Source: Nocardioides sp. SLBN-35 (GTDB lineage Bacteria; Actinomycetota; Actinomycetes; Propionibacteriales; Nocardioidaceae). Taken from it: 64,000 nucleotides of DNA. The DNA lies in contig NZ_VFNU01000001.1 in the NCBI RefSeq assembly GCF_006715725.1, positions 1,116,001 through 1,180,000 of the forward strand, given 5' to 3'. Below the pieces are notes generated by a model, which saw only the letters and a list, made by a program, of their open reading frames with translations, searched no databases and was not told the DNA's origin. The translations under genes were made by a program, and so were the position numbers. Numbering within the stretch: the stretch's first letter is position 1; every line of letters starts with the position of its first letter. Below, piece after piece: positions 50,656 through 64,000 of this stretch.

Positions 50656-50922
50656 TCAGTCGTCCTCCGGGGCCAGCACCGGCAGCGTGCCGTCGACGAC
50701 CGCCTGGCCGATGCTCTCGCGCAGCCGGTCGCAGACCGGCGGCAGTCCCTTGATGGCGGAGCCGGGGGACCAGGAGGTGCAGGCGGCCATCGCCTCGTCG
50801 GACCACTGGACGGAGGTCTGCTGCCAGCTGGCCTTGCGGACCAGCACCCGCGCGGCGCACGACGTGCACGTCAGCGGGTGCATCGGGGCCTCGGCCAGCC
50901 GGTTGTCCGGCCGCACGCCCAT
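50656..50922 (-). CDS. Small cysteine-containing protein downstream of kshA, unknown function
   Basis: An 88-residue soluble protein. HPLTCTSCAARVLVRKASWQ contains a CxxC pair, with further Cys in MAACTSW and PPVCDRL. It has a Trp-rich middle and an acidic tail. Its start overlaps the kshA stop by one base (TGATG), so it is translated with kshA. Mycobacterial kshA is also followed by an unassigned gene. The cysteines could bind iron-sulfur or zinc, but there are too few spacing matches for a ferredoxin. Not recognised. Confidence 0.6.
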   Translation of the reverse strand: MGVRPDNRLAEAPMHPLTCTSCAARVLVRKASWQQTSVQWSDEAMAACTSWSPGSAIKGLPPVCDRLRESIGQAVVDGTLPVLAPEDD

Positions 50923-52124
50923 CAGGCGTCCTGGGGCTGGGGGACCGCTGCGGCAGACTCGGCGGCGGCCTCGGCGCGGCGGGCGAGGTTCTCCTCGACC
51001 TCGCGCTTCCAGGCCTCGACCGGCTTGGTGGTGTCGAGCTCGAACTCGAAGCGCTCGGTCATCTCGGGGGTGACCTGGTCGGCGTCGACGTAGAACTGCT
51101 CGTACCAGCGGCGCAGCTGGTAGACCGGGCCGTCCTCCTCGCACAGCAGCGGGTTGTCGATCCGGGTCTTGTTCTTCCAGATCTCGACGTCCTGCTCGAA
51201 GCCGAGGCGGACCGTGGCGACCATCTTCGCGGCCAGCGCCTCGGCGGCGGCCGGGTCGTCGTCCTCGACCTCGGGGCGCTGCATGCTGATGCCGTAGAGC
51301 AGCATGAAGGAGTTCTCGTCGATCGGGTAGTGGCAGTTGATCAGCACGGTGCGGGTGTCGCCGTGCTCGTAGTGGTAGATCAGGTCGTCGATCATGAACG
51401 ACGGGCCGTGGTACGTCGCCACCGACGTGTTGCCCAGGCGCTTCGGGGCGCCGATGGCGACCTCGGCGGGCCGCATGTCGTCGCGGTTGACGCCCTTCTG
51501 CAGCTGGGTCGCCGTGTGGCCCTCGAAGGTGTTCTTGAAGTACGTCGGGAACGCGTGGTGCACGTAGAAGAAGTGCGCCATGTCCACGACGTTGTCGATG
51601 ATCTCGCGGCAGTTCGTGTTGACGATCGTGCTCGCCCACGCCCAGTCGGTCCAGGTCGGGTCGGACGGGCCGCCGTCGATGAGAGGGATGGCCTGCTCGG
51701 GGATCGGGGCCTTGCCCTCGTGGTCGTGCCACACGAAGACCAGGCCGTCCTGCGTCATCGCGTGCCAGGTGCGGGTGCGGGCACGCAGCGGGACCCGCCG
51801 CGAGTACGGGATCTGCTTGCAGCGGCCGTCGCCGCCCCAGCGCCAGTCGTGGAACGGGCAGGCGACCTCGTCGCCCTTGATCGATCCCTGCGACAGGTCG
51901 CCGCCCATGTGGCGGCAGTACGCGTCGAGGACCTTGATGTCGCCCTGGCTGTCGGCCCACACGACGAGCTTTGTGCCGAACGCCTGGATCGAGTGCGGCC
52001 TTCCGTCGCGGAACTCCTTCTCGAGACCGATGCAGTGCCAGCCGCGGGCGAACCGGGCGGGGGCGGCCTCGAACTCGATGTGGCGGACCTCGTCGGCGCC
52101 CGTGCTGTTCTGCACCGCAGTCAT
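50922..52124 (-). CDS. kshA: 3-ketosteroid 9-alpha-hydroxylase, oxygenase component (Rieske)
   Basis: A 400-residue Rieske non-heme-iron oxygenase collinear with mycobacterial and rhodococcal KshA. The Rieske cluster ligands are Cys70-x-His72 and Cys89-x-x-His92 (AYCRHMGGDLSQG, ACPFHDWRWGGDGRCKQIPY). The mononuclear iron site lies in NVVDMAHFFYVHHAFP (Asp181, His184, His189). The blocks PSFMIDDLIYHYE, NKTRIDNPLLCEEDGPVYQL and RRWYEQFYVDADQVTPEMT are near-identical to KshA. It opens steroid ring B together with KstD. The KshB reductase is not in the window. ATG 52124 has GAGGAGA 5 bases upstream; an ATG at 52154 is less likely. A 15-bp palindrome lies about 108 bp upstream. Confidence 0.93.
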   Translation of the reverse strand: MTAVQNSTGADEVRHIEFEAAPARFARGWHCIGLEKEFRDGRPHSIQAFGTKLVVWADSQGDIKVLDAYCRHMGGDLSQGSIKGDEVACPFHDWRWGGDGRCKQIPYSRRVPLRARTRTWHAMTQDGLVFVWHDHEGKAPIPEQAIPLIDGGPSDPTWTDWAWASTIVNTNCREIIDNVVDMAHFFYVHHAFPTYFKNTFEGHTATQLQKGVNRDDMRPAEVAIGAPKRLGNTSVATYHGPSFMIDDLIYHYEHGDTRTVLINCHYPIDENSFMLLYGISMQRPEVEDDDPAAAEALAAKMVATVRLGFEQDVEIWKNKTRIDNPLLCEEDGPVYQLRRWYEQFYVDADQVTPEMTERFEFELDTTKPVEAWKREVEENLARRAEAAAESAAAVPQPQDA

Positions 52125-52231
52125 CTCGATCTCCTCGTGGTGGGGCTGGGTCATGAGCTCGTGGGGGCGGGGACGGAGAGCCCTGCCGATGCTGGGACGT
52201 TATGGACGGCGAACCCGTCTGGGCACGAAGG

Positions 52232-52287: not shown

Positions 52288-53076
52288 ATGACCTCCATCA
52301 CAAGCCAGTCCGCACCTGCCCCCGATACCGCTTCCGGCCGCGTCGCCGACAAGGTCGTCATCGTCACCGGCGGCTCGCGTGGCATCGGTGCCGCGTGCGT
52401 CCGCCGGCTCGTGCAGGAGGGCGCGCGGGTGGTCATCGCCGACGTCCTGGAGGCCGAGGGCAAGGCGCTCGCCGACGAGCTCGGCGACCGGGCGTCGTAC
52501 GTCGCCCTCGACGTGACCAGCGAGGACGGCTGGGAGCGGGCGATCGCCGAGGCGGAGGCCGCCTTCGGGCCGGTGTCCGGCCTGGTCAACAACGCCGGCA
52601 TCGTGCACGTCGACCCCATCGAGCAGCACAGCGAGGCGGACTACCGCCGCGTCATCGACGTCAACCAGGTCGGTGTCTTCCTCGGCATGAAGGCCGCGAT
52701 CCCCTCGCTGCGCAGGGCCTCCGTGGCCGGCGTGGGCGGCTCGATCGTCAACATCTCCTCGACCGGCGGCCTGATCGCGTACTCGCGGATCATCGGGTAC
52801 GTCGCCTCGAAGTGGGCCGTGCGCGGCATGACCAAGACCGCGGCCCAGGAGCTCGGCCCCGACAACATCCGGGTCAACTCCGTGCACCCGGGCTTCACCC
52901 GCTCCGAGATGACCGCCAACTCCGCGCGGTCGCACGAGGGCGCCCAGCACCAGCCCCTGGCCCGCCAGGCAGAGGCGGTCGAGATCGCCAACCTCGTGCT
53001 GTTCCTGATCTCCGACGAGTCCAGCTACAGCACCGGATCCGAGTTCGTCGCCGACGGCGGCTTCACCTCGCTCTAG
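52288..53076 (+). CDS. Short-chain dehydrogenase/reductase (hydroxysteroid-dehydrogenase-like)
   Basis: A 262-residue classical SDR. The cofactor motif is TGGSRGIG (27-34), the NNAG motif is at 101-104, and the catalytic set is Ser157/158, Tyr171 and Lys175 (GYVASK). VRVNSVHPGFTRSEM and the C-terminal YSTGSEFVADGGFTSL resemble bacterial 3-alpha/20-beta-hydroxysteroid dehydrogenases. Asp in IADVLEAEG after the second strand suggests NAD(H). It would oxidise or reduce a hydroxyl/keto group. It is divergent from kshA and co-directional with the next SDR 38 bases downstream. Substrate inferred from context. Confidence 0.85.
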   Translation: MTSITSQSAPAPDTASGRVADKVVIVTGGSRGIGAACVRRLVQEGARVVIADVLEAEGKALADELGDRASYVALDVTSEDGWERAIAEAEAAFGPVSGLVNNAGIVHVDPIEQHSEADYRRVIDVNQVGVFLGMKAAIPSLRRASVAGVGGSIVNISSTGGLIAYSRIIGYVASKWAVRGMTKTAAQELGPDNIRVNSVHPGFTRSEMTANSARSHEGAQHQPLARQAEAVEIANLVLFLISDESSYSTGSEFVADGGFTSL

Positions 53077-53114: not shown

Positions 53115-53933
53115 ATGAAGGACTTCAACGGCAAGGTCGTCGTCATCACCGGCGCCGGCGCCGGCATCGGCCGCGAGCTCGCGGTCCAGCTCGCCCGCGA
53201 GGGTGCCCGGCTGGCTGTGTCCGGACGCAGCATCGCCAACGTCGAGGAGACCGCCGAGCTGTGCCGCAAGGCCGGCGCCGAGGCCCGCGCGTACGAGGTC
53301 GACGTCACCGACCGCAACGCGGTCATCAAGCACGCCGACGAGGTCGTCGCCGACTTCGGCAAGGTCAACGTCGTCATCAACAACGCCGGTGTCTCGCTGG
53401 TCGCCAGCGTCGACGAGGTCAGCTGGGACGACCTCGACTGGATCGTCAACATCAACTTCTGGGGCGTCGTACACGGCACCAAGGCGTTCCTGCCGCACGT
53501 CATCGCCTCCGGCGACGGCCACATCGCCAACATCTCCAGCATGTTCGGCCTGGTCGCCTGCCCGACGCAGAGCGGCTACAACGCCACCAAGTTCGCGGTC
53601 CGCGCGTTCACGGACTCGCTGCGCCAGGAGATGAGGATGTACGAGCACAAGGTGGGCGTCAGCAGCGTCCACCCCGGCTCGATCCGCACCGACATCGCCA
53701 AGAAGGCCCGCGCCGGCGGCGACCGCGACGTCGCCCAGCTCGCCGCGAACTTCGACCGGATCGCCAAGATGACGGTCGAGGAGTGCGCCGACATCATCAT
53801 CAAGGGCATCCGCAAGGACAAGGCGCAGATCCTGTGCGGCAACGACGCCAAGTTCATGGCGGTCCTGCCGCGGGTCATGGGCCCGGGCTACCAGAAGGTC
53901 ATCACCGCGCTGTTCAAGAAGGACGTGAAGTAG
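53115..53933 (+). CDS. Short-chain dehydrogenase/reductase
   Basis: A 272-residue classical SDR: TGAGAGIG at 12-19, NNAG at 89-92, Ser141/142, Tyr155 and Lys159 (SGYNATK). After the core it continues DSLRQEMRMYEHKVGVSSVH, AKKARAGGDRDVAQLAANFD and KDKAQILCGNDAKFMAVLPR, a long C-terminal tail typical of lipid- or retinol-dehydrogenase-like SDRs. AAGGAGAG lies upstream of ATG 53115 in the same leader found at 58502. It probably forms an operon with the preceding SDR. A hairpin follows 24 bases after the stop. Confidence 0.85.
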   Translation: MKDFNGKVVVITGAGAGIGRELAVQLAREGARLAVSGRSIANVEETAELCRKAGAEARAYEVDVTDRNAVIKHADEVVADFGKVNVVINNAGVSLVASVDEVSWDDLDWIVNINFWGVVHGTKAFLPHVIASGDGHIANISSMFGLVACPTQSGYNATKFAVRAFTDSLRQEMRMYEHKVGVSSVHPGSIRTDIAKKARAGGDRDVAQLAANFDRIAKMTVEECADIIIKGIRKDKAQILCGNDAKFMAVLPRVMGPGYQKVITALFKKDVK

Positions 53934-54180: not shown

Positions 54181-56538
54181 TCACCCGCGGGCGGCCTCCA
54201 GCACCTCGACCGTGCCGGCGGCGCCGTCGACGCGGACGAGCATCCCGTCGGTGAGGCTGGTGGAGGCGTGCTTGGTGTCCACGACGCAGGGGATGCCGAA
54301 CTCGCGGGCCACGATCGCGGCGTGGGAGGCGGCGCCACCGATGTCGGTGACGACGGCGGCGGCGTACCCGAACATCGCGGTGTGGCCCACGTCGGTGACG
54401 GACGCGACGAGGACCTCGTCGGGCTCGATGTCGTCGTCGGGGGTGCGTAGGACGCGGACCCGGCCCTCGACGGTGCCCGCGCTGACGCCGATGCCGCCGA
54501 TGGTGTCGCCGACCGCGACGCCGTCGTGCACGCCCTCGGGGGCCCAGGTGCCGACGACGACGTCGGGCATCCGGATGCCCTGCAACCGCACCCGCTCGGT
54601 ACGACGCCGGGCGACCCGCTCCTCGAGGCCGGCCGGGTCGACGAACAGCTCGTCCAGGGTCAGGTAGAACGCGTCGTCCACCGCCGAGAGCCGGCCCGCG
54701 GCGACCAGCCGCCCACCCCGCTCGCGTACGGCGAGCCGCAGGGCATGGGTGTAGCGGACCACGCCGTCGCGGGCGCGCTCGCGGGCCAGGATCGCGCCGG
54801 CGGCCATCTTGCCGGTGCGCGACTTCATGACCGGCGCCGCGTCACGCGACGCAGCCGGCCGCAGGGCGGCCGCAGCGGCGGAGCCGACCAGGTGCGCCGG
54901 CCGGTCGGAGAAGGACGGGTTCGCCAGCTCGCACTCGCCGGGGCCGCGGTGGCCCATGACGGCGAGCTGTGCGTCGAGCGCGGCCGCGAACGACGGGGAG
55001 GCGGCGCGCAGCGCCTCGACGTCGCCCTCGCCGGCCAGCTTGAGCAGGTGGTCGTCGCCGCGCAGCTCGTCGGCGAGGCGCTCGACGGCGAGCATGGTGC
55101 GCGCCGACTCGAGGAGCTCGACGTCGACCGCGACGTGCTCGGGCTCCTTGCCCCGCTCGTGGATCCCGTCGGCGGCGCTGGTCATCATCACGCCGATCGA
55201 CGCGACGGACCAGGCGTGGGCGAGACGGTCGCGCCACAACAGGGCGCGGGTGTGCAGCTGGTCGTCGCTCAACGCGGCCACCTGCTCGGCGGTGAGGCTC
55301 TCGGCCGCCGCGGCGGTGTGCACGGCCTCGGCCTCCTCCTTGAACTTCCGCGCCCGGGCGATCACCCGGCTGGTCGCGGTGAAGGTGGCGATCCGGCTGG
55401 CGAGGCCGGTCGGCATCGGCGGGCCGCCCTGGGGCCGGAAGACGACCTCCTCGGGGATGTTGCCGTAGACGTCCTTGCGGACGGTGGCCTCGTCCCAGCC
55501 GGGCATGTTCTCGACGATGTTCACCCCGACCGAGGCGTTGATGTAGACGCAGTGGCCGAGCACGCCGAGCACCAGGCTGGTCTGCTGCTCCAGCGCCGCC
55601 CCCTCGAGGGCGAGCATCCGGCCCATGCCCTCGTTGGAGATCCGCTGCGCACCGAGCTGGAGGTCCAGCGACATCGGGGTGAGCGGGCCGGGCAGCGCCT
55701 CGGACGTGTTCGTCGCCGTCAGTACGGCGAGCCGCGGGTCGACCAGCGTGTCGAACTCGCCCTGGTACTCGGCCGACGACGCCGCCGCCACGAGCGAGCC
55801 GCCGTCGCTGGCGGGCAGGTTGTTGGGGATGACGTACGTCGGCAGGCCGAACCGCCCGGACTCGACCGCCGCGCCGCGCTTGGTGATCCGGGTGCCGCGC
55901 AGGCCGCGGGCGAGGTCCTCGACGGCCTCGCGGGCGGTCCAGCCGTAGCCGAAGCCGGCCGGCACCGCGCTCTCGGCGAGCGGGGCGGCGGGTCGGGCCG
56001 AGACACCGGGCACGGCGGGCTTCACGCCGGCGACCTGAAGCAGCCTGCGCGCTTCGGAGCCGCTGACGGTGCCGGGCGCGGCGAGCACGAAGGGGCCGGG
56101 AGCGCCATCGACGGCGACGGCCGCCAGAGCACGGTTCAGGTCGTCGTGGTGCACGACCTGCCGCGCGGCCGAGCCGCTGCCGAGCAGGTCCGCGAGGGTC
56201 TGCAGCGCCGCCCGGTCGGTACGGCGACCGGCGACCGGGGCGACCTCGACCACCACGACCTCGGCTCCTGCGGACGACAGCGCGGCCGCTGCAGCAGAGC
56301 TCTCGCCGAGCGGGACGGGGAGCACGATCCGGGTGCCGGGCGCGACGGGGAGCGGGCCACCGGCGAGGTGCACGACGACATCGACCGAACCGGCGGCGTC
56401 GACGTCGGCGACCACGACGACGCCCGGGTCCAGGTAGCGGTGCTGCCCGACTCCGACGACCTCGTGGCCGGCGGCCAGCAGCAGGCGGGCGACGTCGCGC
56501 CCGTCCTCGGTGGCGACTCCCGTGATCAGGACGCGCAT
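54181..56538 (-). CDS. PEP-utiliser-type phosphotransferase subunit with N-terminal Rossmann domain, lacking ATP-grasp
   Basis: A 785-residue fusion. Residues 1 to about 200 look like a Rossmann/epimerase domain (MRVLITGVATEDGRDVARLL) with a degenerate glycine motif. Residues about 255-680 resemble the acceptor-binding middle domain of rifampin-phosphotransferase/PEP-synthase-like proteins (VDPRLAVLTATNTSEALPGP, then LTPMSLDLQLGAQRISNEGM). Residues about 690-785 form the swivelling phosphohistidine domain, with His739 in GGAASHAAIVAREFGIPCVV. There is no ATP-grasp domain, so it cannot take phosphate from ATP alone. A partner with ATP-grasp is encoded at 59265. GGAGGAGA precedes ATG 56538. Two copies of the shared palindrome lie upstream. 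Confidence 0.8.
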   Translation of the reverse strand: MRVLITGVATEDGRDVARLLLAAGHEVVGVGQHRYLDPGVVVVADVDAAGSVDVVVHLAGGPLPVAPGTRIVLPVPLGESSAAAAALSSAGAEVVVVEVAPVAGRRTDRAALQTLADLLGSGSAARQVVHHDDLNRALAAVAVDGAPGPFVLAAPGTVSGSEARRLLQVAGVKPAVPGVSARPAAPLAESAVPAGFGYGWTAREAVEDLARGLRGTRITKRGAAVESGRFGLPTYVIPNNLPASDGGSLVAAASSAEYQGEFDTLVDPRLAVLTATNTSEALPGPLTPMSLDLQLGAQRISNEGMGRMLALEGAALEQQTSLVLGVLGHCVYINASVGVNIVENMPGWDEATVRKDVYGNIPEEVVFRPQGGPPMPTGLASRIATFTATSRVIARARKFKEEAEAVHTAAAAESLTAEQVAALSDDQLHTRALLWRDRLAHAWSVASIGVMMTSAADGIHERGKEPEHVAVDVELLESARTMLAVERLADELRGDDHLLKLAGEGDVEALRAASPSFAAALDAQLAVMGHRGPGECELANPSFSDRPAHLVGSAAAAALRPAASRDAAPVMKSRTGKMAAGAILARERARDGVVRYTHALRLAVRERGGRLVAAGRLSAVDDAFYLTLDELFVDPAGLEERVARRRTERVRLQGIRMPDVVVGTWAPEGVHDGVAVGDTIGGIGVSAGTVEGRVRVLRTPDDDIEPDEVLVASVTDVGHTAMFGYAAAVVTDIGGAASHAAIVAREFGIPCVVDTKHASTSLTDGMLVRVDGAAGTVEVLEAARG

Positions 56539-56624
56539 GGACTCTCCTCCTCGTGGTTCCCCGGCCCCTCGTACCGGAGCCAGACGAGGAGCGTCCGGCC
56601 CGTGAGGCCGGTCACGTCCCGGAG

Positions 56625-56639
56625 TCCCACTCAGCGGGA
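56625..56639. promoter_or_regulatory. Shared 15-bp palindrome, site 2
   Basis: TCCCACTCAGCGGGA; its complement TCCCGCTGAGTGGGA differs from site 1 at two bases. It lies about 87 bp upstream of the 785-aa phosphotransferase gene. Confidence 0.6.
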
Positions 56640-56641
56640 GA

Positions 56642-56656
56642 CTCCTGAAGCGGGAG
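56642..56656. promoter_or_regulatory. Shared palindrome, weaker site 3
   Basis: CTCCTGAAGCGGGAG, centred 17 bp from site 2; the complement begins CTCCCGCTTCAGG. It keeps the TCCCGCT half but has a poorer second half. Confidence 0.4.
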
Positions 56657-56714
56657 CGGAGCGGGCCGCAGGCTCCCGGTCCGGGCCGCCCCCGCCGTGC
56701 CCGACGACCGCGCT

Positions 56715-56729
56715 TCTCGCTGAACGGGA
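56715..56729. promoter_or_regulatory. Shared 15-bp palindrome, site 4
   Basis: TCTCGCTGAACGGGA, about 90 bp upstream of the KstD-family gene. It differs from site 1 at two bases. Confidence 0.55.
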
Positions 56730-56818
56730 CTTGCGCCCCACCGCCGCACGCCGGTCCGTTGTCTAGGACCGCACCCCCCACGACCGAGCAGCCCCGCAGC
56801 ACGCCCCAGGAGGACACG

Positions 56819-58489
56819 ATGACGGACCCGACCACGACGGCCTGGCAGCACGAGGTCGACCTGCTCGTGGTCGGCGCGGGCGCGGGCGGCATGACCGCCG
56901 CGCTCACCGGCGCCCTGTCCCGGCTCGACACGCTGCTCGTCGAGAAGGCCGCGACGTACGGCGGCACCACCGCCCTGTCCGGAGGCGGCATCTGGGTCCC
57001 GAACAACCCGACCCTGGAGCGCGCGGGCATCACCGACCCCGAGGAGCGGGTGGTCGAGTACCTCGAGCACATCACCCACGGCACGATCGCCCGCGACCGG
57101 CTCCAGGCCTACGCGCACCACGGTCCGGCGATGTTCCGGATGTTCGAGAAGCAGACCGAGCACCTCGAGTTCAGCTGGTGCCCCGGCTACTCGGACTACC
57201 ACCCCGAGGCGCCGGGGGGACGTCCTGAGGGTCGCTCCGTCGAGTGCCCGCCGTTCGACATGCACAAGCTCGGCGAGCTCGCCTACACCCAGCGCGGCAG
57301 CGCGATGAAGATCCCCGGCGGCCTGATCATCACCTCCGCCGACTACGTGCACCTCAACATGGTCACCCGCACCTGGCGCGGCCGGTGGCGCGCGCTCAAG
57401 CTCGGCGTGAAGGCCACCCTCAACAAGCTGCGCCGCCGCCAGATGGTCTCGCTCGGCCTGGCGCTGGTCGCCCGGCTGCGGATCTCGCTGCGCGACGCCG
57501 GCGTCCCGGTCTGGCTGGAGACCCCGCTGCTCGACCTCGTCCGCGACGAGGACGGCACGGTCGTCGGCGCTGTCGTCGAGCGCGACGGTGCGCCGTACCG
57601 GATCCGGGCCCGACGCGGCGTGATCATCGCCAGCGGCGGGTTCGACCACAACGAGGCGATGCGCAAGGAGTACCTCCCCGAGGTCGGCCGCGCCGGCGTG
57701 TCCGGCGGCGCCGACACCAACACCGGCGACGGCATCCTGATCGGCCACGCGGCCGGCGGCGCCCTCGACCTGATGGACGACGCCTGGTGGATGCCCGCGG
57801 TGCGCAAGCCCGACGGCCGCGTGCACTCGCTGGTCTCCGAGCGTTCGATCCCCAACTCGGTCATCCTGTCGCCCGAGGGCGAGCGGTTCACCAACGAGGC
57901 GTCGCCGTACGTCACCTTCGTGCACGACCAGATCGCCCACGGGCACCCCTACCTCTGGTTCGTGATGGACCAGACCGCGCGACGCCGCTACCCGTTCGGC
58001 GCCACGGTCCCGGGCGCCGACCTGCCGCAGAAGTGGTACGACGCCGGCACCGCCCACAAGGCCGGAACCCTCGACGAGCTGGCGCGGCAGACCGGCATGG
58101 ACGCCGCCACCCTCACCGCCAGCGTGCGGCGCTGGAACGAGATCGTCGCCAGCGGCAAGGACACCGACTTCGGTCGCGGCGAGAGCGCCTACGACCGCTA
58201 CTACGGCGACCCGACGCTGCCCAACCCGGTGCTCGGCGCGGTCGACAACGCGCCGTACTACGCCGTGCGGATCGAGGCCGGCGACCTCGGCACCAAGGGC
58301 GGCCTGGTGACCGACCGCGTCGGCAAGGTGCTCGACGCCGACGGCAATGCCGTCGTGGGCCTCTACGCCACGGGCAACGTGGCCGCCTCGGTCATGGGCA
58401 ACGACTACGCCGGTGCCGGCGCGACCATCGGCCCCGCCATGGTCTTCGGCTACCTCGCCGCGCTGCACGCCGCCGGCGCCACCAACTGA
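56819..58489 (+). CDS. FAD-dependent 3-ketosteroid delta-1-dehydrogenase family protein
   Basis: A 556-residue flavoprotein of the KstD/fumarate-reductase group. The FAD motif is VVGAGAGGMTAALTGAL (17-33). The KstD-type substrate region is recognisable: GYSDYHPEAPGG (123-134), FTNEASPYVTF, and the C-terminal VMGNDYAGAGATIGPAMVFG, whose Tyr corresponds to the conserved tyrosine of KstD. It introduces a 1,2 double bond into 3-keto rings in characterised relatives; KstD-like paralogues act on other cyclic ketones. It pairs functionally with kshA. AGGAGG lies 6 bases before ATG 56819. It leads an operon with an SDR, a PPDK-like gene and another SDR. Confidence 0.85.
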   Translation: MTDPTTTAWQHEVDLLVVGAGAGGMTAALTGALSRLDTLLVEKAATYGGTTALSGGGIWVPNNPTLERAGITDPEERVVEYLEHITHGTIARDRLQAYAHHGPAMFRMFEKQTEHLEFSWCPGYSDYHPEAPGGRPEGRSVECPPFDMHKLGELAYTQRGSAMKIPGGLIITSADYVHLNMVTRTWRGRWRALKLGVKATLNKLRRRQMVSLGLALVARLRISLRDAGVPVWLETPLLDLVRDEDGTVVGAVVERDGAPYRIRARRGVIIASGGFDHNEAMRKEYLPEVGRAGVSGGADTNTGDGILIGHAAGGALDLMDDAWWMPAVRKPDGRVHSLVSERSIPNSVILSPEGERFTNEASPYVTFVHDQIAHGHPYLWFVMDQTARRRYPFGATVPGADLPQKWYDAGTAHKAGTLDELARQTGMDAATLTASVRRWNEIVASGKDTDFGRGESAYDRYYGDPTLPNPVLGAVDNAPYYAVRIEAGDLGTKGGLVTDRVGKVLDADGNAVVGLYATGNVAASVMGNDYAGAGATIGPAMVFGYLAALHAAGATN

Positions 58490-58518
58490 GAACACCGGCA
58501 GGACAAGGAGAGACAGCC

Positions 58519-59268
58519 ATGGGAACGCTGGACGGACGCGTCATCATCATCACGGGCGGAGCCCGCGGCATGGGGGCCTCGCACGCCCGGCACCTGGTCG
58601 CCGAGGGTGCGAAGGTGGTCATCGGCGACGTCATCGACGACGCCGGTGAGCTCCTCGCCAAGGAGCTCGGCGACGCCGCCGTGTTCGTGCATCACGACGT
58701 CACCTCGGCGGCGGACTGGGACGCGATCGTGGCGGCCGCCGTGGAGGCCTTCGGCGCCGTGCACGGCCTGGTCAACAACGCCGGCGTGCTCAGCTTCGGC
58801 TCGCTCGCCGACACCACGCCCGAGGCGTTCCAGCGGATCATGGACATCAACGTGACCGGCTCCTTCCTCGGCCTGCGCGCGGTCGCCCCGGTGATCACCG
58901 ACGCCGGCGGCGGATCGATCGTCAACATCTCCTCGATCAACGGCCTGCTCGGCACCGGCTTCACGACCGCCTACACGGCCAGCAAGTTCGCGGTCCGCGG
59001 CCTCACCAAGGCCGCCGCCCAGGAGCTCGGCCCGGCCGGGATCCGGGTCAACTCGATCCACCCCGGCGGCATCGCCACCCCGATGACCCAGCACGAGGGC
59101 GGCGACGCCGCGGGTGCGGCGTTCGCGAAGTTCCCGATCCCCCGCTGGGGCCAGCCCGAGGAGGTCTCGCCGCTCGTGGCGTTCCTGCTGTCCGACCTGT
59201 CCAGCTACTCGACCGGCGGCGAGTTCGTCGTCGACGGTGGCATCACCAGCGGCCTGTACTTCTCATGA
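58519..59268 (+). CDS. Short-chain dehydrogenase/reductase (hydroxysteroid-dehydrogenase-like)
   Basis: A 249-residue classical SDR: TGGARGMGASHARHL (12-26), NNAG at 86-89, Ser138, Tyr152 and Lys156 (AYTASK). GGEFVVDGGITSGLYFS ends the protein. The GGARGMGASHAR pattern and overall size are those of 3-alpha/20-beta-hydroxysteroid dehydrogenases. GDVIDDAG after the second strand suggests NAD(H). It is the second gene of the KstD operon, 29 bases after the first. Its stop overlaps the PPDK-like start (ATGA). The leader GACAAGGAGAGACA-CCATG is nearly identical to that of the SDR at 53115. Confidence 0.87.
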   Translation: MGTLDGRVIIITGGARGMGASHARHLVAEGAKVVIGDVIDDAGELLAKELGDAAVFVHHDVTSAADWDAIVAAAVEAFGAVHGLVNNAGVLSFGSLADTTPEAFQRIMDINVTGSFLGLRAVAPVITDAGGGSIVNISSINGLLGTGFTTAYTASKFAVRGLTKAAAQELGPAGIRVNSIHPGGIATPMTQHEGGDAAGAAFAKFPIPRWGQPEEVSPLVAFLLSDLSSYSTGGEFVVDGGITSGLYFS

Positions 59269-60716
59269 TGGCGACCATCGACCGACCGGCCATCGCTGCC
59301 GGCATCCGTGCCGACGTCGTCCGTCTCGACGGCACCTGCGAGCTCGACCGCGCCGCCATCGGCGGCAAGGCGTGGAGCGTCAACGCGATGCGTGCGCTCG
59401 GCCTGCCCGTCCCGCCCGCCGTGGCCCTGACGACCGGCTGCTGCGCGGCCTTCTACGCCGCCGACGGCGCGCTCCCCGACGACGTCTGGGAGCAGGTACG
59501 ACGCGGCGTCGCCTTCCTCGAGGAGGAGACCGGCCGCCGCTTCGGGAGCACCGAGCGTCCGCTGCTCGTCTCGGTGCGCAGCGGTGCGCCGGTCAGCATG
59601 CCCGGGATGATGGACACCGTCCTCAACCTCGGCCTCACCGACGCGACCGCGGCCGCACTGGTCGCCGAGAGCGGCGACGAGGCGCACGTCGCCGACACCC
59701 GCGAGCGCTTCGTGCGGCAGTACCAGGAGACCGTGGCCGAGGGCCCGGTCCCCGACGACGCGTGGGCCCAGCTGCGCGCGGCCGTGGCGGCCGTCTTCGG
59801 CTCGTGGCAGTCCGCCCGCGCCCGGACCTACCGCCGCACGCGGGGGATCGCCGACGACCTCGGCACCGCTGTCACCGTGCAGGCGATGGTCTTCGGCAAC
59901 CTCGACGACGACTCCGGCACCGGCGTGCTCTTCTCGCGCGATCCGAGCACCGGCGACCCCGCCCCGTTCGGCGAGTGGCTCGTCCGCGGCCAGGGCGAGG
60001 ACGTCGTGTCCGGCCGGGTCACTCCGAAGGCGCTGGCGACGCTCGCCGAGCAGATGCCGTCCGTGCACGCCGACCTGATGAAGGCGACCGCGACCCTGGA
60101 GGAGTCCGGGCGCGACGTGCAGGACATCGAGTTCACCGTCGAGGGCGGGCGGCTGTGGCTGCTGCAGACCCGGGCGGCCAAGCGGACGGCGGCGGCCGCC
60201 GTACGGATCGCGGTCGACCTGGTCGACGAGGGCGTCCTCACGCCGGCCGAGGCCGTGGCCCGGGTCAGCGCCGAGCAGCTGCAGGCGGTCGTCGAGGCCG
60301 CGTCCGGCGCCGGGACCGGTACGCCGGTCGCGACCGGCGAGTCGGCCTGCCCCGGCCTGGCGTACGGCGTCGCCGTCGCCGACCCCGACGAGGCCGAGGA
60401 GCGCGCGGAGGCCGGTGAGGACGTCATCCTGGTCCGCTCCGCCACCTCGCCCGACGACCTGCACGGCATGCTCGCCGCCAACGGCATCGTGACGGAGTAC
60501 GGCGGTGCGACCTCGCACGCCGCCGTCGTCAGCCGCGAGATCGCGCGTCCCTGCGTCGTCGGCTGCGGTGCCGGCACGGTCGAGTCGCTGGTGGGTCGCG
60601 AGATCACCGTCGACGGCGCGACCGGCGAGGTCTGGGAGGGCCGGATCGAGACCGTCGCCGCCGAGGAGAACCCCTACCTCGCCCGGCTCCAGGCCTGGGC
60701 GGCGGAGATCGGGTGA
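59265..60716 (+). CDS. Truncated pyruvate-phosphate-dikinase-like protein (ATP-grasp plus phosphohistidine domain, no PEP barrel)
   Basis: A 483-residue protein collinear with the first 500 or so residues of pyruvate, phosphate dikinase (usual length about 870-900). The ATP-grasp part shows AAIGGKAWSVNAMRALGLPV, LLVSVRSGAPVSMPGMMDTV, QAMVFGNLDDDSGTGVLFSR and DIEFTVEGGRLWLLQTRAAK. The swivelling domain carries His418 in EYGGATSHAAVVSREIARPC. The PEP/pyruvate-binding C-terminal barrel is missing. This is not a frameshift, since the gene ends cleanly with a 4-base overlap into the next SDR. It could use ATP to phosphorylate its His and pass phosphate to a partner or acceptor, possibly the 785-residue protein nearby. 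Confidence 0.85.
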   Translation: MMATIDRPAIAAGIRADVVRLDGTCELDRAAIGGKAWSVNAMRALGLPVPPAVALTTGCCAAFYAADGALPDDVWEQVRRGVAFLEEETGRRFGSTERPLLVSVRSGAPVSMPGMMDTVLNLGLTDATAAALVAESGDEAHVADTRERFVRQYQETVAEGPVPDDAWAQLRAAVAAVFGSWQSARARTYRRTRGIADDLGTAVTVQAMVFGNLDDDSGTGVLFSRDPSTGDPAPFGEWLVRGQGEDVVSGRVTPKALATLAEQMPSVHADLMKATATLEESGRDVQDIEFTVEGGRLWLLQTRAAKRTAAAAVRIAVDLVDEGVLTPAEAVARVSAEQLQAVVEAASGAGTGTPVATGESACPGLAYGVAVADPDEAEERAEAGEDVILVRSATSPDDLHGMLAANGIVTEYGGATSHAAVVSREIARPCVVGCGAGTVESLVGREITVDGATGEVWEGRIETVAAEENPYLARLQAWAAEIG

Positions 60717-61531
60717 GTGTCGCGGTCGTGACCGGTGCCTCGCGGGGCGCCGGCCGCGGCATCGCCCGGGCGCTCGGCGACCTCGGCGCGACCGTCTACC
60801 TGACCGGTCGTTCGGCCTCGGTCGCGGACGTCGCCGAGGAGGTCACCGCTCGCGGCGGCCACGGGATCGGTGTGGTCTGCGACCACGGGGACGACGACGC
60901 CGTGGCGGCCCTGTTCAGCCGAGTGGGGGAGGAACAGGGGCGCCTCGACGTCCTCGTCAACAACGCGATCGCGCTGCCGTCCGGGCTCGGCGAGGACCAG
61001 CCGTTCTGGGAGCGGCCGCTGGACCACCAGCGGATGTTCGACGTCGGCCTGCGCTCGACGTACGCCGCCGGCTGGTACGCCGCGCCGCTGCTGATCGAGG
61101 CCCGCGGGCTGCTCGTGAACACCTCGTCCTTCGGCGGCGGGTGCTACATGCACGGTCCGGCGTACGGCGCCGCGAAGGCCGGTGTCGACCGGCTGGCGCA
61201 CGACATGGCGATCGACCTGGAGCCCCACGGCGTCACCGCGATCTCGCTGTGGATGGGGATCCTGCGCACCGAGCGGACGCTCGCCGCGCTCGCGGCCGAT
61301 CCCGACAAGTACGGCGACCTGGCTGCCCGCACCGAGTCCGTGGAGCTTCCCGGCCGGGTGATCGCGGCGCTGTGGCAGCACCCCGACCGGGCGCGGTGGA
61401 ACGGGCAGGTCGTCGTCAACGCGGAGCTCGCCGTCGAGCTCGGCGTGACGGACGTCGACGGCGGGCAGCCGCCCTCGCACCGGTCGATGCTGGGCGGACC
61501 GCCCGCGGTCAACCCCGCGATCGTGCGCTGA
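60713..61531 (+). CDS. Short-chain dehydrogenase/reductase (DHRS1-like)
   Basis: A 272-residue SDR starting at a GTG that overlaps the previous stop (GTGA). The cofactor motif is TGASRGAGRGIARALGD (7-23), and the strand-2 TGRS suggests NADP(H). The usual NNAG is NNAI (83-86). Catalytic Ser138/139, Tyr151 and Lys155 (YGAAK) are present. NTSSFGGGCYMHGPAYGAAK and WMGILRTERTL resemble DHRS1-type SDRs. It is the last gene of the KstD operon and abuts the convergent FAD gene with no spacer. Substrate unknown. Confidence 0.85.
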   Translation: MSVAVVTGASRGAGRGIARALGDLGATVYLTGRSASVADVAEEVTARGGHGIGVVCDHGDDDAVAALFSRVGEEQGRLDVLVNNAIALPSGLGEDQPFWERPLDHQRMFDVGLRSTYAAGWYAAPLLIEARGLLVNTSSFGGGCYMHGPAYGAAKAGVDRLAHDMAIDLEPHGVTAISLWMGILRTERTLAALAADPDKYGDLAARTESVELPGRVIAALWQHPDRARWNGQVVVNAELAVELGVTDVDGGQPPSHRSMLGGPPAVNPAIVR

Positions 61532-63019
61532 TCACGCGCCGAGCGCCCGGGCGCTCGCCCGTCGACCCGCGATCCGGCCGAACGCCAGCGCGTCGGCGAT
61601 GTGCATGCCGCCGTCCTTGCACCAGCTGTAGGTCGTGCTGACCCCGCCCGCGGCGTACAGGCCGGGGATGGTCTCGCCGAACGGGTCGAGCACCTCGGCG
61701 TGCTCGTTGCGGCGCGGGCCGCCGTTGCTCCAGGCGACCATCGGCGCCGACGTGAACGCGTAGTACGGACCGTCGCCGAGCGCGACCAGGGTCGACGGCT
61801 CGCGGCCGAACTGCTCGTCGAAGCCGGCCGCGCAGGCCGCGTTGTAGCGGGCCACCGATGCGACCAGCAGCTCCGGGTCGACGCCGATCAGCGGTGCGAG
61901 CTCCTCGAGCGTGTCGGCCTTGTGCAGCCATCCCTTCTCGACCTCGACGCTGTTGTCCCAGCTCCACTCGTAGCCCTCGACCAGCACGTTCCAGCCGACC
62001 GGCAGCATCGCCGCGGTGGGCGAGACGGGCCCGGCCAGGCGGGTCTCCTCGTCGAAGACGGCGTGCAGGCTGCGGACGGGGACGTGCTCGTAGGCCCCGT
62101 GCACCAGGCCCTGGCCGTGCCCGGTCCGGGGCAGCTCGTCGACGCAGCGCCGACCGTCGCCATCGACGTACAGGAAGCCCTTGCGGAAGGAGAACCGCGT
62201 GTAGAAGCCGCTCTCGAAGCCCGGGACGCGGAAGCCCTCGATGCTGGTCATGTTGTCCATGTGCCACAGGTCGGCGCCCGCCTTCTGGGCCATCCGGTGC
62301 CCGTCGCCGGTGTTGTACGGCGAGCCCCAGGTCAGCGTGTCCGGGAAGCGGAGGTAGTCGCGGACCATGCCGGCGTCGCCCTCGAAGCCACCGGTCGCGA
62401 GCACGACGCCGCCCGCCGCAGGGAGGGTGCGGCGGGTGCCGTCGGCGTCGGTGACCTGGACCCCGACGACCGTGCCGTCGGCGTCCTGGACGAGGCGCTC
62501 GGCACGGGTTCCGAGGAGCACCGTGATGTCGCGGCGGGCGAGTGCCTCGGTGAGTGCGGTCAGCAGCCGGGAGCGGCCGAGCGCGCCGCCGACGGCACGC
62601 CAGCCGGTGACCGCGTCGCTGCCCTCGAGCTCGGGGAACTCCGGCGGGATCTCGACGACCGTGCCGGCGATGCCGCGGTCCAGGGTGCCCGGGACGGCGC
62701 CGACCTCGGCGCCGACGGTGTCCCGCATCCACGCGGTGGTGCGGGTGCACTCCTCGGCCCATGCCGCGATGACCGGCTCGGGGACGCGGCGCTCGCCGCA
62801 CAGGCTGCGCAGGTAGACCGCGGCCCGCTCGGCGCTCGACGGCTCCCACCACGCGCCACCGGACACGCGGGTGCTGCCACCCTCGAGGCCGGCGGCCATC
62901 TTGTCGACGAGCACCACGCGGGCGCCCGCGTCGTGGGCCTCGATCGCCGCGGCGCAGCCGGCCGCGCCGTGGCCGAGGACGACGACATCGGCCACGAGGT
63001 CGGCCGCGAGGTCGCCCAT
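61532..63019 (-). CDS. FAD-binding dehydrogenase (fumarate reductase/KstD-like)
   Basis: A 495-residue flavoprotein. The FAD motif is VVVLGHGAAGCAAAIEAHDA (12-31). Mid-region ATGGFEGDAGMVRDYLRFPD and the C-terminal GLYAAGGVSTTYSWCKDGGM follow the FAD_binding_2 family. The terminal part differs from the KstD-type GATIGPAM, so it is a separate dehydrogenase, perhaps acting on a related ring ketone. It is translated behind the 208-residue protein (the stop TGA and this ATG share one base). It converges with the SDR at 60713 with no spacer. Confidence 0.83.
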   Translation of the reverse strand: MGDLAADLVADVVVLGHGAAGCAAAIEAHDAGARVVLVDKMAAGLEGGSTRVSGGAWWEPSSAERAAVYLRSLCGERRVPEPVIAAWAEECTRTTAWMRDTVGAEVGAVPGTLDRGIAGTVVEIPPEFPELEGSDAVTGWRAVGGALGRSRLLTALTEALARRDITVLLGTRAERLVQDADGTVVGVQVTDADGTRRTLPAAGGVVLATGGFEGDAGMVRDYLRFPDTLTWGSPYNTGDGHRMAQKAGADLWHMDNMTSIEGFRVPGFESGFYTRFSFRKGFLYVDGDGRRCVDELPRTGHGQGLVHGAYEHVPVRSLHAVFDEETRLAGPVSPTAAMLPVGWNVLVEGYEWSWDNSVEVEKGWLHKADTLEELAPLIGVDPELLVASVARYNAACAAGFDEQFGREPSTLVALGDGPYYAFTSAPMVAWSNGGPRRNEHAEVLDPFGETIPGLYAAGGVSTTYSWCKDGGMHIADALAFGRIAGRRASARALGA

Positions 63020-63645
63020 CAGTGCGCCCGGCCCGCGACCGCCTCTTCGAGCCGGGTACGGCCGCTGAGCTGGATCAGGTCCTCGTGGAGCTCGAACCAC
63101 ACCGTGTGGTAGCTGTCGAGGATCGGGCGCGCCACCCAGGTGGTGTCGCCCTCGGCCAGTCGGTCCTGCGCGTGCTGCAGGCGCTGGGGATAGCGGGCCA
63201 GGCGCGGCGCGACCTGCGCGAGCCGCTCGACGAGCGGGAGAACCCGGGCGTGCAGGTCGGCGAGGCGCGCGAGCACCTCGGCGTCGTACGCCGCGTCGGT
63301 GTGGTCGTTCGGCGTGCCGTCGGCCCTGAGCTGCCACGCGGTCACGATGGTCTTGAGGTCGGAGTTGACGACGCAGAAGTCGTCGTACGCCGAGGCGAGG
63401 GAGGGCTGGTCGACACTCGCCGCGTCGGCGGCGAGCAGCTCGGCCAGGCGGTCGCGGCCGGGGTCGGCGAGCCGGAAGCCGGCGCCGGCCTTGACCAGCT
63501 CGCCCGCGGCCGCGAGATCCGTCAGCAGGGCGCCAGCCGCCTCGGGGGTGATCCCCAGGGGCGTGGCCACGTCGGCCTCGCGGACCCGGCCCTTCAGCTC
63601 GACGACGCGCAGCACGCTGAGCAGGGTGGGCTCGGCAACGGACAT
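63019..63645 (-). CDS. Winged-helix-like protein of unknown function
   Basis: A 208-residue soluble protein. Residues about 5-62 (LLSVLRVVELKGRVREADVA, then TPLGITPEAAGALLTDLAAA) look like a winged helix. The rest is helical (LARLADLHARVLPLVERLAQ, then HTVWFELHEDLIQLSGRTRL). It may be the regulator of the surrounding genes or an accessory subunit. It has no CBS domain or metal motif. GAGGAGA lies 5 bases before ATG 63645 in a leader identical to that of kshA (GAGGAGATCGAGATG). A copy of the shared palindrome lies 67 bp upstream. Confidence 0.6.
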   Translation of the reverse strand: MSVAEPTLLSVLRVVELKGRVREADVATPLGITPEAAGALLTDLAAAGELVKAGAGFRLADPGRDRLAELLAADAASVDQPSLASAYDDFCVVNSDLKTIVTAWQLRADGTPNDHTDAAYDAEVLARLADLHARVLPLVERLAQVAPRLARYPQRLQHAQDRLAEGDTTWVARPILDSYHTVWFELHEDLIQLSGRTRLEEAVAGRAH

Positions 63646-63711
63646 CTCGATCTCCTCGTCTCGTTCGGTTCACCCGAGGTTCACCTGATCGCGCGGTGTG
63701 AGGGCCGTCGC

Positions 63712-63726
63712 TCCCGATCAGCGGGA
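63712..63726. promoter_or_regulatory. Shared 15-bp palindrome, site 5 (right divergent promoter)
   Basis: TCCCGATCAGCGGGA, midway between the divergent 208-aa gene and the phosphatase-family gene. A further half-site TCCCGATCA occurs at 63775-63783. Confidence 0.6.
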
Positions 63727-63797
63727 CGAGTACGCGCCGAGCCGGTCGCTGCCGGGATCGTGACAACGTCGTCATCCCGATCAAGACGGAGGCAGTT

Positions 63798-64000
63798 GTG
63801 GGCACGGTGAGCGAGGCCACCCGGTGGCTCGACCTGGCAGAGGTCGACAACATCCGCGACCTCGGCGGCCTCCCCGTCGCGGGCGGCGGCTGCACGCGCT
63901 CGGGCGTGGCGTTCCGGGCCAGCACCCTGCAGGAGATCTGTGCCGCCGACGTGACCGAGCTGGTCGACGTACGCCGGCTGCGGACGATCATCGACCTGCG
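63798..64000 (+). CDS. Tyrosine-phosphatase-family protein (Y_phosphatase3), 3' end outside window
   Basis: The first 67 residues are visible. WLDLAEVDNIRDLGGLPVAG followed by CTRSGVAFRAS and VDVRRLRTIIDL is the N-terminal pattern of the Y_phosphatase3/Siw14-like family (NxRDLGG ... GxxxRS ... LRTIIDLR). The catalytic CxxGKDRTG-type loop would lie beyond the window, so activity cannot be judged. GGAGG lies 6 bases before GTG 63798. Relatives remove phosphate from tyrosine or small phosphorylated compounds. Its place beside a phosphotransferase-type gene set is suggestive. Confidence 0.75.
   Translation, partial: MGTVSEATRWLDLAEVDNIRDLGGLPVAGGGCTRSGVAFRASTLQEICAADVTELVDVRRLRTIIDL

Follow-up and report, generated by a model that had tools for sequence, protein, structure and literature searches.

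The donor, acceptor and third component

Within a 64,000-nucleotide stretch of the Nocardioides sp. SLBN-35 genome (assembly GCF_006715725.1, contig NZ_VFNU01000001.1, positions 1,116,001 to 1,180,000 of the forward strand; hereafter the window, whose numbering is used throughout), two genes encode proteins that resemble complementary halves of a dikinase, as an earlier note based on the sequence of this DNA had proposed. Both open reading frames lie where that note had placed them: a 483-residue protein, here called the donor, at 59265..60716 on the plus strand, and a 785-residue protein, the acceptor, at 54181..56538 on the minus strand. A third gene, for a protein of 208 residues (63019..63645, minus strand), had gone unnoticed, and the two-gene account is to that extent incomplete. 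The host genome is a single contig of 5.37 Mb.

With respect to the donor, Pfam recognizes the ATP-grasp domain PPDK_N of pyruvate phosphate dikinase (PPDK) and a PEP-utilizers phosphohistidine (swivel) domain at residues 385-454; the C-terminal phosphoenolpyruvate (PEP)/pyruvate barrel of a true PPDK is absent, as the earlier note had said. The swivel histidine, His418 (codon 60516..60518, plus strand), sits in an SHAA motif (GGATSHAAVVSRE) and is the proposed first phosphohistidine, equivalent to His422 of VadK (Rv1127c). The protein passes the NCBIfam model PRK05878 (685.3 bits, cut-off 456). Full-length PPDKs also pass this model (in this order, with scores as high as 536 bits), and a stricter cut-off was used to count the short ones. 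The donor scores 685 bits with PRK05878 and 479 with PPDK, as against 120 and 104 with PEP synthase. Its ATP-site motifs (GGKA, SVRSGA..SMPGMMDT, QAMVFGN, GQGEDVVSG, DIEFT and LLQTR) align with those of the full-length PPDK encoded at 3.17 Mb in the same genome, and the residues whose loss the earlier note had considered are intact. Of the 35 aligned proteins, short or PPDK-like, 34 keep the swivel and its histidine, the other row (L103) being misaligned and not read; no support values were used in reading the PPDK tree. Identities to relatives in Nocardia, Rhodococcus and Diaphorobacter are 53-65%. Its sequence places the donor in the VadK family, with which it shares PRK05878 membership, a two-domain layout and an Rv1126c-family neighbor. 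This family is already in the literature: VadK has been studied, and it is interpreted there as a histidine kinase that acts on proteins (PMC13400623, EMBO Rep 2026). In the sections of that paper that deal with the enzyme, VadK autophosphorylates on His422, the H422A, H422D and R106K variants fail to restore growth on propionate, and VadK is more soluble when co-expressed with Rv1126c, its partner in the operon.

The acceptor consists of an epimerase-like fold (residues 1-226), a substrate domain like that of rifampin phosphotransferase (RPH; ~258-660) and a swivel domain (~680-781) with the proposed second phosphohistidine, His739 (codon 54322..54324, minus strand), again in an SHAA motif (GGAASHAAIVARE). 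Its only Pfam match is PEP-utilizers (704-775), and it has no ATP-grasp. The predicted structure (mean pLDDT 74.7, pTM 0.80) matches RPH in Foldseek (E 7.6e-14), and residues 258-781 superpose on RPH 316-867 (Z 20.8, root-mean-square deviation 4.4, 461 residues), which agrees with the acceptor-like domain claimed earlier. To judge from the structural account of RPH (5HV1, 5FBT; PMC4844700), the two proteins share the RIF-binding-domain fold, the catalytic Arg-Glu and the His, whereas RPH has three domains in one chain, including an ATP-grasp of its own. R586 and E587 align with Arg666-Glu667, the catalytic pair of RPH, and the phmmer match begins at R586. Together with H739 they are invariant among 15 aligned relatives; the Arg is kept in all 19 acceptors aligned, the Glu in 15 (Gly in the other four), and the swivel histidine in all 17 aligned RPH-type acceptors that possess the domain.

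At the family level the acceptor matches PRK12320 and PRK05865 ("sugar epimerase family") weakly, both far under cut-off; with PRK05865, the family of Rv2047c, it reaches 324.7 bits where the curated cut-off is 1509. Its sequence makes it a distant relative of Rv2047c with the same architecture: an epimerase-like N-terminus, a PEP-utilizer C-terminus and the acceptor motifs. The prodigiosin ligases RedH and PigC are also among its sequence relatives. A PRK12320-type paralog in Mycobacterium (L106:7572-9671; L062-L068) keeps the epimerase and acceptor domains and has no swivel domain; if active, it must presumably borrow one.

The 208-residue protein, of the Rv1126c family (motif DSYHTVWFELHEDLI), has no match in Pfam or NCBIfam. 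Its model (pLDDT 89.3) shows a winged helix in the N-terminal third only, followed by a helical domain that carries the motif SYHTVWFELHEDL; the most conserved motif lies in this helical remainder. A Foldseek search of the model against the PDB gave no match at E 0.001 or better, which does not show a new fold. It is 48% identical to the gene product beside the donor in Mycobacterium G310, which from its place we take to be Rv1126c. Some plasmid records label such proteins as MarR regulators. A plain regulator seems doubtful in view of these features of the model, the Foldseek result and the fusions of family members to enzymes, although the protein may bind DNA.

Distribution and linkage of the parts

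All genome searches scored the best 2 to 8 candidates per genome at E cut-offs of our own choosing, and the resulting counts are lower bounds. In a class-level set of 344 genomes (acceptor, NF004520 at E 1e-50; short dikinase, NF004531 at E 1e-175), an Rv2047c-type acceptor was found in 15, a short dikinase in 18 and both in 12 (Fisher p 1.7e-15). Among 158 Mycobacterium genomes, 73 have the acceptor family, 77 the donor, 68 both and 76 neither (Fisher p 3e-28). Such p-values ignore kinship, and most of the shared carriers belong to one genus. The 77 donor carriers, counted at E 1e-100, include a full-length PPDK (G576), a gene that a contig end truncates (G562), one that was read as two pieces (G565) and a broken one (G610, a 3.3 Mb mycobacterial genome whose Rv2047c-type gene is broken too); stricter cut-offs give 62 genomes that have both genes, 5 and 11 that have one, and 80 with neither. 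Thus the two genes do co-occur in other genomes, as the split-dikinase proposal had supposed, and far above chance.

In all three acceptor-only genomes of the class set, the 208-residue gene has a truncated PPDK from a different lineage as its neighbor. Four of the six donor-only ones have a different acceptor beside the donor: an RPH-type protein in G270, and in G297, G403 and G529 a second type of about 480 residues that adjoins stand-alone swivels. Of the remaining two, G444 has no acceptor within the 20 kb read, and the stretch read in G434 covers 4.7 kb. The donor and acceptor genes lie 2.7 kb apart in the window, ~12 kb in G543 and 13 kb in G525. Ten of the 68 Mycobacterium genomes with both have them on one contig, no more than 13.1 kb apart; if genes were placed at random, ~0.4 such genomes would be expected, counting a reach of 20 kb in a genome of 6.2 Mb. 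The four of these ten loci that were fetched hold acceptor, polyketide synthase (PKS), donor and 208-residue gene all together, one of them also with a phosphatase gene, and G525 has all five. That the donor and acceptor pair is a phosphotransferase seems well supported by these comparisons.

A profile built from seven relatives found the 208-residue gene in 71 of the 344 class genomes, including all 18 with a short dikinase and all 15 with an Rv2047c-type acceptor. In 17 of the 18, no more than 6 kb separates it from the short dikinase (in G288 the two are on different contigs), and relatives adjoin short dikinases in Mycobacterium, G525, G230 and many plasmids. In the Nocardia-like G543 and in Nocardia loci the domain is fused in-frame to the short dikinase (~700 residues), two of the five named Nocardia fusion loci being cut at the locus end; relatives are also fused to a swivel-bearing protein in Rhodococcus opacus B4 and to an AMP-binding protein in Rhodococcus LW-XY12. 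Because of this adjacency, the fusions and the solubility effect of Rv1126c on VadK, the data speak for the 208-residue protein as a physical partner of the donor, and the family offers a handle for finding further such kinases. At L220, L222 and L227 a family member stands beside a short PEP-synthase-type protein with ATP-grasp and swivel (~390-500 residues) and no acceptor domain, by sequence the same truncated layout from another lineage. At L130:12393-14900 and L228 the neighbor of the 208-residue relative is a PPDK-like protein of ~835 residues, whose C-terminal part (324-357 residues) looks like a degenerate barrel.

Swivels also occur as free-standing proteins beside the 208-residue gene, of 122 residues in Rhodococcus sp. 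008 and 138 in R. oxybenzonivorans, which would fit a relay. In Novosphingobium the ~480-residue acceptor type and such a swivel lie within 12 kb. The one sequence of the second type that was compared with Pfam and NCBIfam has no match in either. Searches of plasmids matched 20 records at 25 places, and 14 loci were read: 12 have a short PPDK, one the 835-residue PPDK-like protein (L130) and one neither (L128), while RPH-type acceptors are present in five, second-type swivels in four and an unclear case in one (L128). The ~480-residue type together with a stand-alone swivel is seen near the short dikinase and the 208-residue gene at L119, L120, L121, L112 and L130. At L129 the swivel has a 383-residue neighbor that matched only itself; that it is an acceptor is a guess.

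In the window's own order (245 genomes) the whole acceptor was found only in this species (G000, G208), and a plasmid search with it at E 1e-30 gave no match. A C-terminal piece of such a protein (68% over 172 residues) lies in G007 (C2, ~618.8-619.3 kb; L093:10798-11313) next to an HsaA-like gene, in a genome with no 208-residue gene, and is perhaps the remnant of a cluster.

The steroid-like gene neighborhood

The neighbors are those that the earlier note had named, now confirmed by Pfam and NCBIfam. On the minus strand at 50922..52154 is a KshA-type Rieske oxygenase (410 residues; PF19298, E 7e-86), with a homolog upstream in the Nocardia loci L135 and L136. Two short-chain dehydrogenase/reductase (SDR) genes follow on the plus strand: 52288..53076 (262 residues, adh_short_C2) and 53115..53933 (272 residues, adh_short), with homologs of 68-71% and 66-68% identity, respectively, in the Nocardia-like G543, L136 and L138. 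Beyond the acceptor gene, a KstD-type flavin adenine dinucleotide (FAD)-dependent dehydrogenase (56819..58489, plus strand; 556 residues, FAD_binding_2; 49-52% homologs in G543, L136 and L138) opens the plus-strand run that contains the donor gene; it scores 778.7 bits with PRK12835, below the cut-off of 837. In that run the donor gene overlaps by 4 bases with an SDR gene on either side, at 58519..59268 (249 residues) and 60713..61531 (272 residues), both also on the plus strand. A second FAD_binding_2 enzyme (61532..63019, minus strand; 495 residues) overlaps the end of the 208-residue gene, and divergent from the latter is a Y_phosphatase3 gene (256 residues; 63798..64000 in the window, plus strand) that starts at 63798 and ends 569 bases past the window. 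Its product passes PF13350 (E 5e-51; 174.4 bits, gathering score 22.2).

Downstream of the window there are homologs of HsaA (two), HsaB, HsaC and HsaD, as well as an IclR-type regulator, a protein like Baeyer-Villiger monooxygenases and another KstD-like protein. The Hsa homologs all fall below the NCBIfam equivalog cut-offs (HsaA 380 and 370.5 of 450, HsaB 177 of 230, HsaC 343 of 450, HsaD 241 of 400 bits), and closer-to-canonical copies of ring-degradation genes lie together at 3.917-3.924 Mb (KshA 67% and extradiol dioxygenase 73% identical). For both reasons the cluster is, by sequence, a second and divergent ring-degradation set.

Much of this arrangement recurs in Nocardia. Nine named genomes carry an ortholog of the acceptor at 53-58% identity, and each of the nine has one short dikinase, contiguous with the 208-residue part and a Y_phosphatase3 gene. 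Loci L136 and L138 add orthologs of the two plus-strand SDRs, the KstD-like gene and the third SDR, and a KshA-like gene was seen in L135 and L136; the remaining Nocardia loci are short or were read over a smaller stretch than these three. The shared SDR, KstD- and KshA-type and phosphatase neighbors are a further point in favor of two complementary halves. A DUF7065 protein recurs near short-dikinase clusters elsewhere (L092:8760-9668, L117:5133-6005, L108:9356-10234, L124:15763-16623 and L129:12375-13463).

A putative phosphate relay and its alternatives

Considering that the two halves are complementary and that the catalytic residues of both are intact, we think it fairly probable that the 483-, 208- and 785-residue proteins form a modular three-part small-molecule dikinase, in which phosphate would travel from ATP via His418 and His739 to a hydroxyl and be taken off again later by a phosphatase. 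The donor would bind ATP and phosphorylate its own swivel at His418, a reaction shown by others for VadK. The 208-residue protein may bind the donor and dock it to acceptors. The phosphate could then move on to His739 of the acceptor, whose swivel would deliver it to the hydroxyl (or enol) group of the ligand in the RPH-like pocket, and the Y_phosphatase3 enzyme encoded beside the 208-residue gene would remove it at a later step. The gene context points to a hydroxylated steroid or a steroid-like terpenoid as the probable substrate, one on which the neighboring divergent Hsa-, KshA- and KstD-like enzymes would act. We prefer a relay in which the donor His takes the phosphate from ATP and hands it to the acceptor His, which passes it to the substrate, because this is the simplest scheme to give both swivels a part; the order of the steps, the nature of the substrate and what the phosphatase does are inferred. 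Phosphorylation-first catabolism, known for phenols and hydroxyacetophenones, would thereby be widened to a probably steroid-like substrate.

A number of observations weigh against this reading. We know of no precedent among dikinases for a His-to-His step between two swivel domains. In Mycobacterium the other half is lacking in 5 of the 73 acceptor carriers and 9 of the 77 donor carriers. M. arenosum (G622/G702) has the acceptor, PKS and phosphatase, and no PPDK-family donor genome-wide at E 1e-60; G641, another mycobacterial genome of 3.3 Mb, has an intact VadK and an Rv2047c-type gene in pieces. No acceptor was found within 12 kb in 4 of the 14 plasmid loci (L110, L126, L127, L131). Fifty-three further genomes of the class set have the 208-residue family and no short dikinase at the chosen cut-off; among nine of them that were examined, three have a truncated PPDK (G256, G274, G300), three a short PEP-synthase-type ATP-grasp plus swivel protein (G258, G326, G450), two a longer PPDK-like protein (G439, G456) and one no donor-like protein (G032). 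Finally, the authors of the VadK study read VadK as a regulator of methylcitrate enzymes; the passage on their pull-down lists PrpC, PrpD, Mfd, Rv1179c and PpsE and does not list Rv2047c, and that on thin-layer chromatography (TLC) of lipids reports no change (PMC13400623). The TLC passage names PDIM, and the method would not obviously detect a trace phospholipid.

One rather unlikely alternative accepts the kinase and differs as to what the phosphate is for: as a leaving or activating group, not a protecting one, it would permit the hydroxyl or enol to be eliminated or condensed (cf. PigC/RedH), and the phosphatase would be a repair enzyme. The presence of RedH and PigC among the acceptor's relatives is consistent with this, and the chemistry would fit the catabolism of tertiary or angular hydroxyls. 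The phosphatase gene beside the donor in nine of nine Nocardia genomes suggests, instead, a regular step.

We also consider it unlikely that the acceptor is charged directly, its swivel docking on the ATP-grasp of the donor while the His418 swivel is regulatory or reserved for other acceptors. HpeI and CreI, which have no swivel, are described as working in this way; in the accounts of HpeHI (PMC12167813) and RPH (PMC4844700), a single swivel histidine takes the phosphate from ATP and hands it to the substrate. The swivel-less PRK12320-type paralog, which retains the acceptor motifs, implies moreover that swivels can be re-assigned. Against direct charging are the retention of the donor swivel and its histidine in all but the misaligned row (L103) of the 35 short PPDKs and the failure in vivo of the VadK His422 mutants as reported in the growth experiments (PMC13400623).

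That VadK-type proteins are regulatory protein histidine kinases, with the acceptor gene an unrelated neighbor, strikes us as improbable. The VadK paper reports, in the parts concerned, autophosphorylation, co-immunoprecipitation of PrpC and PrpD and an altered methylcitrate flux; these same parts describe no phosphorylated PrpC or PrpD, and the regulatory interpretation rests partly on the lack of a separate barrel half in the genome (PMC13400623). Linkage and co-occurrence with acceptor proteins are, by contrast, conserved across many lineages, and the 14 plasmid records show a catabolic neighborhood with no methylcitrate gene named in the annotated stretches. As for a decaying PPDK copy, the missing barrel, which in PPDK provides the pyruvate site, would be expected of one, but the intact ATP and swivel residues, the passing of the PRK05878 cut-off, the 53-65% identity kept in Nocardia, Rhodococcus and Diaphorobacter relatives and the full-length PPDK elsewhere in the genome leave this idea virtually no credence, and we reject it.

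Returning to the three-part dikinase, its Mycobacterium counterparts (VadK, an Rv1126c-type protein and an Rv2047c-type protein whose gene adjoins a pks12-like one) hint at a role of VadK in charging a lipid phosphotransferase. In all ten PKS-linked Rv2047c-type loci checked (L044-L050, L051, L142, L243) the PKS is adjacent or overlaps the fetched edge; it is not adjacent at five mycobacterial loci of other kinds (including L141 and L143-L145) nor at the PRK12320-type loci L062-L068. The NF004520 proteins beside a PKS are inferred to be Rv2047c from their domains and from the operon with pks12 described in PMC7058343; the window's acceptor gene lies among steroid-like genes instead. A role of Rv2047c in mycoketide biosynthesis was already suggested in that paper's discussion of the operon. 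The transposon sequencing (TnSeq) labels given there for six iron conditions are NE ES GD NE NE ES for rv1127c, NE ES ES NE NE GD for rv2047c and NE GD GD NE NE GD for pks12, and the three genes fall in the same mycobactin-sensitivity group (PMC7058343). The likeness is suggestive only, because other genes, mmpL5 and murI among them, have like patterns. The main text of the VadK paper names neither Rv2047c, pks12 nor acceptor proteins (PMC13400623), and we found no paper in the open-licence literature that links VadK with Rv2047c.

More tentatively, and somewhat short of an even chance in our estimation, the donor module (short dikinase plus 208-residue docking protein) may be the head of an ATP-driven phosphorelay that serves interchangeable acceptors, in the way that enzyme I of the phosphotransferase system (PTS) serves a range of sugars. 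Several unrelated acceptor types, RPH-like or of the ~480-residue kind without a known domain, would use the donor, with swivels either part of the acceptor or free-standing; in Mycobacterium, VadK would be the donor and Rv2047c one acceptor. On this view VadK would make up half of the kinase for the pks12 polyketide alcohol, and loss of a phospholipid or phosphometabolite, not loss of regulation, would account for the metabolic and virulence phenotypes of VadK. Proteins hitherto studied or annotated apart would be tied together, the truncated M. tuberculosis dikinase having a different other half, an RPH-like acceptor.

The phenylphosphate synthase and CreHI precedents cited in the earlier note apply in part. 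In the descriptions of HpeHI, CreHI and PpsAB (PMC12167813, PMC9618137), as in the window, ATP-grasp and acceptor (substrate domain plus swivel) are on separate chains, the acceptor has an RPH-like fold and a C-terminal swivel with a catalytic His, and the genes lie in a catabolic cluster with a phosphatase; HpeH and HpeI are reported to form no stable complex (PMC12167813). The layout differs: those donors are of PEP-synthase type and have no swivel, whereas the window's donor is PPDK-derived with a swivel of its own (385-454, His418); their acceptors are PRK08296-type, the window's has an epimerase-like domain; and in the window there is also the 208-residue third component. Identity with CreHI/HpeHI is consequently rejected on both layout and lineage. 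By these comparisons the system functions in the manner of the two-component small-molecule dikinases without being one of them, and what appears to be new is the PPDK-derived donor with its own swivel, the third, docking component and the interchangeable acceptors.

The same genome also has a separate pair of the HpeHI/CreHI type, with an SDR, at 2.1938-2.1967 Mb (L094:6759-9700 in G000). Its HpeI-like donor of 364 residues matches PEP synthase at the ATP-grasp end only, and its 616-residue acceptor is a PRK08296 protein (1167 bits). By position and sequence start only, the neighbors of this pair are P450-, ferredoxin- and aldehyde-dehydrogenase-like.

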